Shown here one piece after another: positions 16,874 to 31,359 of a stretch of DNA of 31,359 bases. Positions within the stretch are counted from its first letter, which is position 1, and each line of letters begins with the position of its first letter. A model generated the notes under the pieces. It did not search any database. It was not told the origin of the DNA and saw only the letters and a list, made by a program, of their open reading frames with translations. The position numbers and the translations under genes are program-made. This DNA is from a virus, in the IMG/VR virus record IMGVR_UViG_3300044535_000029, positions 1-31,359 of that record; one strand, 5' to 3'.

Positions 16874-17395
16874 ATGCCTTGCGCTTTAACTCAAAATTAT
16901 ACCTTAGATTGTAAAGACAGTTTAGGCGGTATAACCGAAGTTTATTTTGCAGCAGCAGCAGACGTTACCTCTACAACCGAGGCAAGTGGTGTTATTACCG
17001 CACTTGTTAAGGCAGCAGGTAAGAAGTTCTATAAGTACGAACTTGTAAAAGGTACTTCTCAAATCGTTGAGAATATCAATGCAAACGTACAGAACGGAAC
17101 TGTATTCTATGCTCCAGAATTAACTATCGTATTAAACAAATTACAAGCTAATACAAGAAACGAAATCTTGTTATTGGCTCAAAACACTTTAGTAGCAGTT
17201 GCCAAAGATAACAATGGCAAATACTGGTACTTAGGTAAAACAAGAGGCTTAGACCTTACCGCAGGTAGTGCAGGTACAGGAACGGCTGAAGGTGATAGAA
17301 GTGGTTACACTTTGACTTTTACAGGTGCAGAAGCAGCTATGGCTCCAGAGGTTAACTCTACTGTAGCAGCAGCTTTAACTACTCCTGGTTCTTAG
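16874..17395 (+). CDS. Probable major tail tube protein
   Basis: A 173-residue protein, MPCALTQNYTLDCKDSLGGI at the start, then EVYFAAAADVTSTTEASGVI, VENINANVQNGTVFYAPELT and a glycine-rich loop SAGTGTAEGDRSGYTLTFTG. This pattern is recurrent in Bacteroidota phages next to the capsid gene, where it is usually taken as the tail tube protein. Size, beta-rich composition and the pair of terminators around it fit an abundant virion protein. A head decoration protein is the main alternative. Its own start is preceded by an A/T-rich sequence with no clear promoter, so read-through of the capsid terminator may set its level. Confidence 0.65.
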   Translation: MPCALTQNYTLDCKDSLGGITEVYFAAAADVTSTTEASGVITALVKAAGKKFYKYELVKGTSQIVENINANVQNGTVFYAPELTIVLNKLQANTRNEILLLAQNTLVAVAKDNNGKYWYLGKTRGLDLTAGSAGTGTAEGDRSGYTLTFTGAEAAMAPEVNSTVAAALTTPGS

Positions 17396-17420
17396 GTTGT
17401 TTTGGTTTTGTATATAGATG

Positions 17421-17450
17421 CCCTCGGACTTAATTGTTCGGGGGTTTTTT
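17421..17450 (+). terminator. Strong intrinsic terminator after tail tube gene
   Basis: CCCTCGGAC (17421-17429) pairs with GTTCGGGGG (17436-17444), nine pairs including two G-U, six-base loop TTAATT-type, followed by TTTTTT (17445-17450). It separates the capsid/tail-tube genes from the portal operon. Confidence 0.85.
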
Positions 17451-17452
17451 AT

Positions 17453-17482
17453 TTTGCAAACAATCGTGATAGTTTATATTTA
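17453..17482 (+). promoter_or_regulatory. Promoter for portal operon
   Basis: TTTG (17453-17456) and TATATTTA (17475-17482), 18 bases apart, match the Bacteroidota -33/-7 layout apart from the final base. It lies directly after the terminator and only five bases before the GTG at 17488, so the message may be leaderless. Confidence 0.6.
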
Positions 17483-27304: not shown

Positions 27305-28039
27305 ATGCTAAAATCAAAACGCAAACGACTATTCTTTGACATCGAAACCTCGCCCAACGTCGGCTTTTTCTGGAGTGCCGGATATAAGCTTAATGTAACT
27401 GCGGATAGCATTATTAAAGAACGTGCTATCATTTGTATATGCTATAAGTGGGAAGACGAAAAAGAAGTTTACTATTTACAATGGGATAGCAAACAGAATG
27501 ACAAAAGAATGTTACAAAGTTTCGTAGAAGTAGCAAACACGGCTTCGGAACTTATAGGGCATAATGGCGACAAGTTCGACTTAGCTTGGATTAGGACACG
27601 CTGCTTGTTTCACGGGATTGAGATGTTTCCTAAATACGTTACAATCGACACGCTTAAGGTAGCACGTCAAAAGTTTAGATTTAATAGCAACAAGCTTAAT
27701 TACATAGCCGACTACTTAGGTATCGGGCAAAAGATTAAAACCGAATATAGTTTATGGAAGGACATTGTCTTGCATAAGGACAAAGTGGCTATGGCTAAAA
27801 TGATTAAGTACTGCCAAAAAGATGTTGTATTATTAGAGCAGGTATTTAACGCACTTAAAAACCACATCGAACCTAAAACACACTATGGCGTTATATTCGG
27901 ACAAGATAGAGGCTCTTGCCCTGAATGTGGAAGCGATGAGATAGTTATACAAATGAGGCGTACAACTGCAACAGGAGTAAAGAAAATATTATACAAGTGC
28001 AAAACTTGTTTTAAGATACATAGCAAAACCGACAAATAA
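27305..28039 (+). CDS. DnaQ-like 3'-5' exonuclease with zinc ribbon
   Basis: A 244-residue protein. Exo I: FFDIETSP (Asp12, Glu14); Exo II: IGHNGDKFDLAWI (His86, Asn87, Asp92); Exo III: YCQKDVVLL (Tyr169, Asp173). These are the metal-binding acidic positions of the DnaQ/PolB exonuclease fold. After about residue 200 a zinc ribbon follows: CPECGS (Cys205/Cys208) and CKTCFK (Cys232/Cys235). No polymerase domain is fused. Likely roles are DNA end processing for recombination with the Erf annealase downstream, or turnover of host DNA. The zinc ribbon probably binds DNA. Confidence 0.88.
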   Translation: MLKSKRKRLFFDIETSPNVGFFWSAGYKLNVTADSIIKERAIICICYKWEDEKEVYYLQWDSKQNDKRMLQSFVEVANTASELIGHNGDKFDLAWIRTRCLFHGIEMFPKYVTIDTLKVARQKFRFNSNKLNYIADYLGIGQKIKTEYSLWKDIVLHKDKVAMAKMIKYCQKDVVLLEQVFNALKNHIEPKTHYGVIFGQDRGSCPECGSDEIVIQMRRTTATGVKKILYKCKTCFKIHSKTDK

Positions 28040-29289: not shown

Positions 29290-29823
29290 ATGAGCCTAAT
29301 TAAAATTCAACAGGAATTAAAAGCACCTAAAAACCAATTCAATGCTTTTGCTAAATACAAGTATCGAAGTGCAGAAGATATTATCGAAGCTGCAAAACCT
29401 ATCTGTCATAAGTACGGCTACGCTTTAATGCTTAGCGATGAGGTTATAGAAGTAGGCGGTAGAGTTTATGTAAAGGCTACTGCTTGTCTAAGTAACGGAG
29501 AAGATAACATCACTTGCACGGGTCTTGCTCGTGAAGAGGAAAACAAAAAGGGAATGGACGCTTCGCAGATTACAGGAGCAGCAAGTAGCTATGCCAGGAA
29601 GTATGCTCTTAACGGGTTGTTTGCAATAGACGATACTAAAGATGCAGATGCTACCAATGAGCATAAAGACGAAGTAAGCGAAGGGCAAAAGGCGTTCTTA
29701 ATTGAGCAGTTAGATAAGACAAAGTTTACTCAGGAACAAAAGTATAAAGCTATTGAGAAAATCAAAGCTATCAAGAGTTTAGACGAATTTAACAAGATTA
29801 AAGAAACAATAAAGAAAAGCTAA
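29290..29823 (+). CDS. erf: Erf-family ssDNA annealing protein
   Basis: A 177-residue recombinase. The core is FAKYKYRSAEDIIEAAKPIC (20-39), LSDEVIEVGGRVYVKATACL, then GMDASQITGAASSYARKY (88-105) and ALNGLFAIDDTKDADA (106-121). The 'Q.tGaa.SYarKYaL.glF.iddt.DaD' motif identifies the Erf superfamily, which anneals single strands for phage recombination and circularisation. The C-terminal part is charged and helical, likely for oligomers or SSB contact. The 3'-5' exonuclease at 27305 could supply single-stranded ends. It joins the next gene by TAATG. Confidence 0.92.
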   Translation: MSLIKIQQELKAPKNQFNAFAKYKYRSAEDIIEAAKPICHKYGYALMLSDEVIEVGGRVYVKATACLSNGEDNITCTGLAREEENKKGMDASQITGAASSYARKYALNGLFAIDDTKDADATNEHKDEVSEGQKAFLIEQLDKTKFTQEQKYKAIEKIKAIKSLDEFNKIKETIKKS

Positions 29824-30389: not shown

Positions 30390-30818
30390 ATGCTAACGAG
30401 AAATAAAGATGTTTCAATAAGACAACTAAAGGAGTTATATTATGCCCAGCGTAATACCCACGTTAAATTGCACGAAATGATGTCGCAGTTAGGGTTGTTA
30501 GGTATAGAAGATAACGAGCCTTTAGGTGCGGATATAGGTGCGAGAAGCATCGTTAAATTAGTTGAGGAAGTATTTGAGTGCGATATATCAAGAAGGGATA
30601 GGTCTTTACGAACTACCTTTGGTCGCAAGGCTGCCGCTTATTTACTTAGAAGGTATACTAAATTGAACCTCAAAGAGATAAGCGCATACACTGGCACTAA
30701 AGACCATACTACCGCAATTCATAACATTAAACAAGCAAATAACCTAATTGACACGGAAGATTGGTTTAAAGACAAAATGAAAAGAATTTGTCAAAAAATT
30801 GAAATTATCGAAAATTAG
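30390..30818 (+). CDS. DnaA domain IV-like protein without ATPase
   Basis: A 142-residue protein. Residues 50-120 match the DnaA DNA-binding domain: ARSIVKLVEEVFECDISRRD, FGRKAAAYLLRRYTKLNLKE, then ISAYTGTKDHTTAIHN. The signature is KDHTTAIHN (104-112), equivalent to DnaA's R-D-H-T-T-V-x-H, which reads the DnaA box. The N-terminal 45 residues are helical, with no Walker motifs or AAA+ domain. It could bind origin or regulatory DnaA boxes and help or block host initiation. It lies just before the leader RNA and replication gene, whose promoter overlaps its 3' end. Confidence 0.85.
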   Translation: MLTRNKDVSIRQLKELYYAQRNTHVKLHEMMSQLGLLGIEDNEPLGADIGARSIVKLVEEVFECDISRRDRSLRTTFGRKAAAYLLRRYTKLNLKEISAYTGTKDHTTAIHNIKQANNLIDTEDWFKDKMKRICQKIEIIEN

Positions 30819-30828
30819 TGTATATTCG
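30799..30828 (+). promoter_or_regulatory. Probable promoter of the leader RNA
   Basis: TTG (30799-30801) and TATATTCG (30821-30828), 19 bases apart, resemble the -33/-7 elements with two mismatches. It overlaps the end of the DnaA-like gene. Transcription would start near 30835, just before the first hairpin of the leader. Confidence 0.45.
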
Positions 30829-30841
30829 CAACATAAATATA

Positions 30842-30935
30842 AGACACATTAAGGAAGAGCGAACCCATAATGTGTTTAGTGGTTAAATAATAAAGACCCT
30901 TGAAGTTCGCTCCTTCTTGGGTCTTTTCTTTTTTT
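30842..30935 (+). ncRNA. Structured leader RNA: paired hairpins with complementary loops
   Basis: Hairpin 1: ACACATTA (30844-30851) and TAATGTGT (30868-30875), perfect 8 bp, extendable by A-T and G-T outside; loop AGGAAGAGCGAACCCA. Hairpin 2: AAAGACCC (30892-30899) and GGGTCTTT (30919-30926), perfect 8 bp; loop TTGAAGTTCGCTCCTTCTT, then a T-rich tail to 30935. Loop 1 GAGCGAAC (30857-30864) is fully complementary to loop 2 GTTCGCTC (30905-30912); with C30913 bulged, five more pairs extend this to 13. The loops can kiss, or pair instead of the stems. A six-codon frame (30870-30890) lies between. The T-tail ends at the ATG of the replication gene. All of this is seen in sequence; the regulatory role is inferred. 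Confidence 0.75.
30892..30930 (+). terminator. Intrinsic terminator just before the replication gene
   Basis: Hairpin 2 of the leader (8-bp stem with three G-C pairs, 19-base loop) followed by TTTTCTTTTTTT, with the T-run directly abutting the ATG at 30936. Termination here would cut off the replication gene, so read-through must be regulated or partial. Confidence 0.7.
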
Positions 30936-31359
30936 ATGGCAAAACGATTTACAGACACGGAAAAATGGAAAAAACCTTTTATCCGTAACCTTTCAGCACC
31001 TTACAAACTTCTATGGCTTTACATTTGTGATGACTGCGACCACGCAGGAATTTGGCAAGTAGACATTGATGTAGCCAGGATAAGAATAGGCGAAGATATT
31101 AACGAGCAAGATGCGGTTAAATTTTTTGGAGATAAGGTTGTTAGAATTGATAATGGCAATAAATGGTACATACCTTCCTTTATAGATTTTCAGTACCCAA
31201 GCGGACTTAACCCAGACAACAAAGCACACGGCGGAATTGTTAAAATGCTCATTAAATACAAATTAATAGATGACCAACTTAAGCCCCTTAGTAGCCCCTT
31301 GCAAGGGGACAAGGTTATGGTTATGGATAAGGTAATGGATAAGGATAAGGTTAAAGAAG
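30936..31359 (+). CDS. Replication protein, 3' partial
   Basis: The frame runs from ATG 30936 past the window end (141 codons visible). Product: MAKRFTDTEKWKKPFIRNLS, then APYKLLWLYICDDCDHAGIW, QVDIDVARIRIGEDI, WYIPSFIDFQYPSGLNPDNK and AHGGIVKMLIKYKLI, then a repetitive K/D/M/V-rich part. The N-terminal domain is the one found in phage replication-initiator or DnaD-like proteins of Bacteroidota phages, often followed by a K-D repeat linker and a C-terminal domain (not visible here). It follows the DnaA-like gene and the terminator-bearing leader RNA, so its expression is probably controlled by that leader. Confidence 0.75.
   Translation, partial: MAKRFTDTEKWKKPFIRNLSAPYKLLWLYICDDCDHAGIWQVDIDVARIRIGEDINEQDAVKFFGDKVVRIDNGNKWYIPSFIDFQYPSGLNPDNKAHGGIVKMLIKYKLIDDQLKPLSSPLQGDKVMVMDKVMDKDKVKE
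31295..31308. repeat. Perfect 14-bp palindrome in replication gene
   Basis: CCCCTTGCAAGGGG is fully self-complementary; a second CCCCTT copy lies just upstream (31284-31289). It is GC-rich in an AT-rich gene. It lies just before the hexamer array at 31313, which suggests a binding site or cruciform rather than coding need alone. Confidence 0.6.
31313..31354 (+). repeat. Seven degenerate GGNNAN hexamers
   Basis: Consecutive units GGTTAT, GGTTAT, GGATAA, GGTAAT, GGATAA, GGATAA, GGTTAA. They code the V/M/D/K linker of the replication protein. Such tandem units inside an initiator gene recall the iterons of the lambda O gene. The array may continue beyond the window. Confidence 0.65.

Follow-up and report, generated by a model that had tools for sequence, protein, structure and literature searches.

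A conserved two-hairpin leader RNA with complementary loops, a candidate attenuator, upstream of a phage replication gene

We analyzed a 31,359-base virus record in IMG/VR (the window) and found, directly before the ATG of a replication gene, a compact leader in which two hairpins carry exactly complementary loops. Comparison of homologues showed that the predicted RNA has two stems and a loop-loop pairing of the intact hairpins. We put the probability at roughly 60% that the leader is an RNA-only attenuator of the phage replication operon, in which a kissing complex formed on its own terminator would set the level of replication protein. The structure is widespread, has strong covariation support and no Rfam entry, and lies where the start of phage replication could be decided. 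Since the two matched loops change together, its function is directly testable by swapping one loop or both.

Organization of the leader in the window

Among the genes upstream of the leader are those for an exonuclease (27305-28039), an Erf-like protein (29290-29823) and a small protein with a motif of the DNA-binding DnaA domain IV (30390-30818; Bac_DnaA_C, E 3e-11). The last of these genes lies directly upstream of the leader, and its end contains the TTG of the promoter described below. It is separated by 117 bases from the replication gene, and this gap holds the -7 element, both hairpins, the linker and the U-run. The replication gene (30936-31359) is the first operon gene behind the leader and is represented by its 5' part, the contig ending inside it. 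The leader and the replication gene are on the plus strand.

Directly 5' of hairpin 1 we found a Bacteroidota-type promoter (30799-30828) that was absent from the original prediction, with TTG at 30799-30801, a 19-nt spacer and the -7 element TATATTCG at 30821-30828. TTG plus TAnnTTTG is the Bacteroidota promoter consensus. Transcription would start at about 30833-30838. TAnnTTYG was present 5' of loop 1 in 115 of 119 distinct leaders, compared with about 4% of shuffled 40-mers in an earlier count, and the TTG upstream of the -7 element was mostly at 19 nt. When the antisense strand within the element was searched for this promoter type only, TAnnTTYG was found in 0 of 118 leaders, with about 7% per leader expected by shuffling.

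Hairpin 1 (30842-30877) is predicted to fold by pairing of 30842-30851 with 30868-30877 around a 16-nt loop, and its stem, ACACATTA/TAATGTGT, has 8 Watson-Crick pairs, or 10 with the flanking pairs included. Loop 1 carries the kissing segment GAGCGAA(C) (GAGCGAAC, 30857-30864), the exact 8-base complement of the segment (G)TTCGCTC (GTTCGCTC, 30905-30912) in the apical loop of hairpin 2; a longer, bulged match is also present. Between the hairpins lies a linker (30878-30891) that is almost invariant within group A, the group of leaders of the window type, and neither a second copy of the linker motif nor iterons were found in the window. Hairpin 2 (30892-30926) has a terminator-like stem, AAAGACCC/GGGTCTTT (30892-30899 with 30919-30926), and an inner 4-bp stem, GAAG/CTTC (30902-30905 with 30913-30916), which had not been noted before and which turns loop 2 into a closed 7-nt loop. 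The predicted energy of hairpin 2 alone was -15.4 kcal/mol.

Folding of a 121-nt region gave -30.3 kcal/mol (z -3.8), a value that 0 of 200 shuffles matched, and the minimum-energy fold included both hairpins. The combined score for the two stems and the loop pairing was 58.9 for the real sequence and 41.3 for the best of 3000 dinucleotide shuffles, none of which reached the real value. Folding and shuffling thus bore out the two adjacent hairpins with complementary loops described in the original prediction. Its observation that a U-run touches the ATG was also correct; the run (30924-30935) ends at the base adjoining the ATG at 30936.

By sequence, the layout is that of an intrinsic terminator, a GC-rich stem and then a U-run before the ATG, and it is kept throughout all groups of leaders. 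A consensus terminator scan with a loop limit of 8 nt did not list the site, where the 8-bp stem encloses 19 nt. In homologues the U-run is kept beside the ATG at a distance of 0-14 nt, and the terminator loop ends 20-35 nt before the ATG. With at most 14 nt between U-run and ATG, a further promoter would not fit there, and the terminator-like hairpin has to be passed for the operon to be expressed. Elsewhere in the window, a further hairpin of strong terminator-like form lies in an intergenic region (17420-17460) and has a long U-run, with no kissing partner seen. We rejected a second similar element at 17369-17460, which gave a weak model match (16.6 bits, E 0.15) and in which no hairpin 1 with a matching loop was seen.

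Homologous leaders and covariation of the paired loops

We collected homologues from IMG/VR relatives of the window protein, from contigs with the group A linker, and from relatives of two other replication proteins that stand behind the same leader. Selecting for listed loop pairs together with a U-run and an open frame, we found the architecture again in at least 119 distinct leaders, which have 20 loop sequences among them. Group A comprised six loop alleles (GAGCGAA, GTACGAA, CTGCGAA, CTACGAA, AGTCCAG and AGTCGAG), and in each case hairpin 2 carries the exact complement. Group B, which has a different linker, has 7-nt loops closed by their own stems (GTTGCAG, GTCGGAT, GTACGAG, GTAGGAT, GTACCAG, ATGCGAC, GTCGCAT and GTCGTTT, and also GTCAGAT, identified partly by eye). 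Rarer loop types were GTGGAT, AGGGAAG, GTGGCAC, GGGACG, TATTGCGC and GGGCAT, together with GTAGTAG, identified by eye. The TTTGACC loop type occurs in a contig of a Bacteroidetes MAG (L544), and the phages that carry the leader probably belong to Bacteroidota.

The pairing between the loops was maintained through sequence change. In 13 distinct group A sequences, selected partly by complementarity, all 7 pairs of the kissing helix formed in every sequence, 5 of them with two-sided changes and none with one-sided changes. The hairpin 1 stem kept 99% of its pairs in 13 homologues, with two-sided changes at 2 of 9 pairs, and two-sided changes were present in the hairpin 2 stem as well. In group B, where a 7-nt loop pairs fully with a 7-nt loop, 77 of 77 cells were paired in 11 sequences, likewise selected partly by complementarity and trimmed and aligned by hand to the two hairpins; 6 of the 7 pairs had two-sided changes, and both stems covaried too. 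Controls with slid columns and with shuffled sequences fell far below the real pairing in both groups.

We also examined 71 distinct group A leaders that had been found by the linker, with pairing not required. A perfect 7-bp loop match was present in 69, and the other two each had a single mismatch, G.G in L394 and A.C in L306 (on the same contig as L499); there was no G-U pair among 497 cells. The six group A alleles in this set differ by two-sided changes. Two pairs of loci amount to natural mutants. In the region of the element, L306 and L368 differ at the mismatched base and nowhere else, a natural single mutant, and the elements of L260 and L263 differ by a G-C to C-G swap across the two loops, a natural double mutant. 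The original prediction had proposed a kissing-loop leader and had named compensatory changes in homologues as the check on it; they were found in loops and stems alike.

The gap between the loop segments was 38-42 nt in 16 of the 20 loop types, despite differing sequences and stem lengths, and the other four types had gaps of 46, 49, 58 and 75 nt, with one example each. A gap this nearly constant suggests that pairing within one molecule is favored.

Genes behind the leader

For the replication gene of the window itself, Pfam and PHROG gave no match, and a fold search with a model of the Rep1 N-domain (mean pLDDT 71) returned no significant match. In the same place elsewhere in group A, the first gene encodes a DUF1376-like protein, with a DUF1376 match below Pfam's cut-off, or a Lin1244_N protein. 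The Lin1244_N type is annotated as a replication initiation protein in isolates, in two of which a DnaC-like helicase loader is adjacent, and its C-terminal part (residues 118-269) matches contigs with Rep1. This annotation and the C-terminal match support naming the window gene a replication gene. Rep1, DUF1376-like and Lin1244_N proteins interchange at one locus behind the same leader (L260 1839-2561, L257 9563-10294 and L280 8015-8821), and several of these proteins, whose N-terminal domains are unrelated, share a C-terminal tail.

Many contigs carry an insertion between the U-run and the replication gene, consisting of an HNH gene (by matches below Pfam's cut-off), a GIY-YIG gene or some other small gene, and it is this inserted gene that the leader then precedes. 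Examples are L001 (2640-3017) and L014 (2687-2998), and there are other loci where the leader lies 300-450 nt before the replication gene. Comparison of these loci showed that the predicted leader keeps to the 5' end of the operon, independent of the downstream gene.

Turnover of loops and leaders

A tree of 91 distinct Rep1 genes, 69 of which have the leader, with 18 loop types among them, shows at least 30 changes of loop type, even between nearly identical rep genes. Loop alleles are not bound to one particular replication protein. Within group A, variation is greatest in the loop segments; the linker and the outer stem hardly vary. Group A leader haplotypes recur across the rep tree, so whole-leader exchange is likely to be part of the turnover, and selection for diverse loops is possible.

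No leader was detected in about a quarter of Rep1 relatives, which indicates that the leader is not essential to this replication protein. One well-supported Rep1 clade of 13 is without it. In one member of this clade (L228) a 65-aa frame with no Pfam match (1793-1990) lies directly 5' of the replication gene, and it might replace the function of the leader.

Proposed mechanism and alternatives

We propose that transcription from the Bacteroidota-type promoter starts a few bases before hairpin 1 and would yield a leader RNA of about 100 nt. Hairpin 1 would fold first, and the apical loop of hairpin 2 would then pair with loop 1 through 7-8 Watson-Crick pairs, joining the two hairpins, both intact, in a kissing complex. 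Hairpin 2 and the U-run would act as an intrinsic terminator directly before the ATG, so that many transcripts would end as a short RNA and only read-through transcripts would express the operon. The kissing contact would set the efficiency of the terminator and hence the amount of replication protein. We lean toward kissing helping termination, because kissing would keep hairpin 2 intact. We assume that intrinsic termination operates in these uncultured hosts, and the U-rich stretch before the ATG could matter for translation.

The original prediction had described an attenuator with mutually exclusive states. Its anatomy is consistent with that name, as a promoter, hairpins, a terminator-like hairpin and a U-run closely before the ATG are all present in the leader sequences, but the exclusive states did not stand. 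In a classical two-state attenuator, long-range pairing between the regions of loop 1 and loop 2 would break both stems and compete with the terminator, as the extended bulged complementarity around the two loops of the window might suggest. However, most homologues lack this extension, their match being confined to 7-8 bp inside the loops, and the hairpin stems covary in their own right. The exclusive fold was also predicted to be 4.5 kcal/mol weaker than the two hairpins (-22.5 vs -27.0 kcal/mol), with the kissing bonus excluded. The conserved pairing is that between loops of intact hairpins, and since the stems are intact under the loop pairing and the exclusive fold is predicted to be weaker and its extension is not conserved, the RNA-only kissing attenuator is favored and we regard the two-state version as very improbable. 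It is unlikely, too, that the leader works mainly by translational control, with the hairpin near the ATG limiting ribosome access, with or without kissing, and termination being minor. The group A hairpin 2 stem does end about 9-17 nt before the ATG, but the GC-rich stem that runs directly into a U-run is a terminator layout kept in all groups, and leaders also precede inserted genes with other 5' coding sequence. We give the least credence to attenuation by a leader peptide, which would be encoded by a six-codon frame (MCLVVK) beginning in the 3' arm of hairpin 1. Although 77 of 83 group A leaders keep this frame whole, the other six break it, conservation extends to every base rather than following codons, and group B has no ATG there.

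The turnover of the loops bears on a further possibility, that the short terminated RNA acts in trans as a specificity RNA. Its loops would pair with nascent leaders that carry the same allele, and expression of the replication gene would fall as copies accumulate or as a like phage superinfects, as with the copy-number and immunity RNAs of plasmids and phage P4. The concentration of variation in the loops, their repeated change between nearly identical genes, and the freedom of loop alleles from any one replication protein all favor such a role. However, both loops are on the same RNA at near-constant spacing, so that pairing in cis should win, no antisense TAnnTTYG site was found in the 118 leaders searched, and recombination alone, by cassette exchange of the recurring haplotypes, could explain the turnover. 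We consider action in trans a minority possibility that falls well short of the RNA-only kissing attenuator. We hold it slightly more doubtful still that the self-complementary leader is an allele-specific device for copy number or superinfection immunity in Bacteroidota phages, in which the short RNA would recognize only leaders of its own allele and matched loop pairs would turn over under selection for specificity. If the leader also acts in trans, it would represent a protein-free immunity or copy-control system in Bacteroidota phages, from which orthogonal RNA attenuators could be taken for use in that phylum.

Comparison with known RNA systems

No Rfam 15 covariance model matched the window up to E 5 or matched L544, and among 12 loci of other groups the only match was to RF01814, at 29.9 bits against a 55-bit cut-off. 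The suggestion that this may be a new RNA family therefore holds as far as Rfam 15 goes. In the literature, taken as open-licence papers only, we found analogues but not this element, and a description elsewhere is possible. The nearest systems by working principle are the P4 CI RNA, the pT181 attenuator and the RNAI/repZ system of I-complex plasmids, and the leader could be matched to none of them in every defining feature.

In satellite phage P4, processed CI RNA pairs in trans with two target sites, seqA and seqC (PMC4825925). The proposed leader resembles it in RNA-only control of a phage replication operon by leader termination, and complementary segments lie in the same transcript, within the replication-operon leader, in both. 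Unlike in P4, the partner here is the loop of the terminator-like hairpin and the segments are 38-42 nt apart in most types. In pT181-type control, an antisense RNA comes from the other strand and an anti-terminator pairs with the 5' arm of the terminator (PMC4878617). The pT181 system, which controls plasmid copy number, also has a replication-gene leader with an intrinsic terminator, here recognized by sequence, and kissing hairpins. The present leader differs in two respects. No antisense promoter-like TAnnTTYG was found in the 118 leaders searched, and loop 1 has its conserved pairing with the apical loop of hairpin 2 and not with the 5' arm of that hairpin.

I-complex plasmids combine kissing between RNAI and stem-loop I with a pseudoknot in ColIb-P9 repZ RNA, and the kissing partner is the antisense RNA (PMC10724649 and its references). 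As in the present leader, loops pair upstream of a replication gene, and loop changes define specificity groups. The in-cis pseudoknot of ColIb-P9 involves the ribosome-binding region of repZ. Loop 1 of the present leader pairs instead with the terminator loop, and the leader has no conserved translated frame, MCLVVK being limited to most of group A. C4 antisense RNA of phages (Rfam RF01695) is complementary to a site on its own transcript, but the leader had no Rfam match to C4. With regard to a riboswitch, for which a conserved unpaired ligand-binding core would be expected, the linker is nearly constant within group A but differs in group B. Mycobacterial extrachromosomal prophages demonstrate that RNA can serve phages in controlling replication.

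Occurrence in isolates and other collections

A blastn search of isolates with the region and a tblastn search with the window protein matched only Pseudanabaena phage Pan5. Its Rep1 relative (ON968456.1 35854-36660; L376 5001-5804), with 55% identity over the matched part, lies behind an HNH gene; no leader was seen there by eye, and this was the sole Rep1 match in the phage collection. Eight phage records with DUF1376-like or Lin1244_N proteins had no such leader before the gene. The window protein had no match in plasmids and no relative in the collection of genome contigs. In a contig binned as Sphingomonadaceae (L547), the region upstream of 1354 has the promoter and a hairpin 2 with the loop CTGCAAC, and hairpin 1 has apparently been lost, through either a natural deletion or a misassembly.
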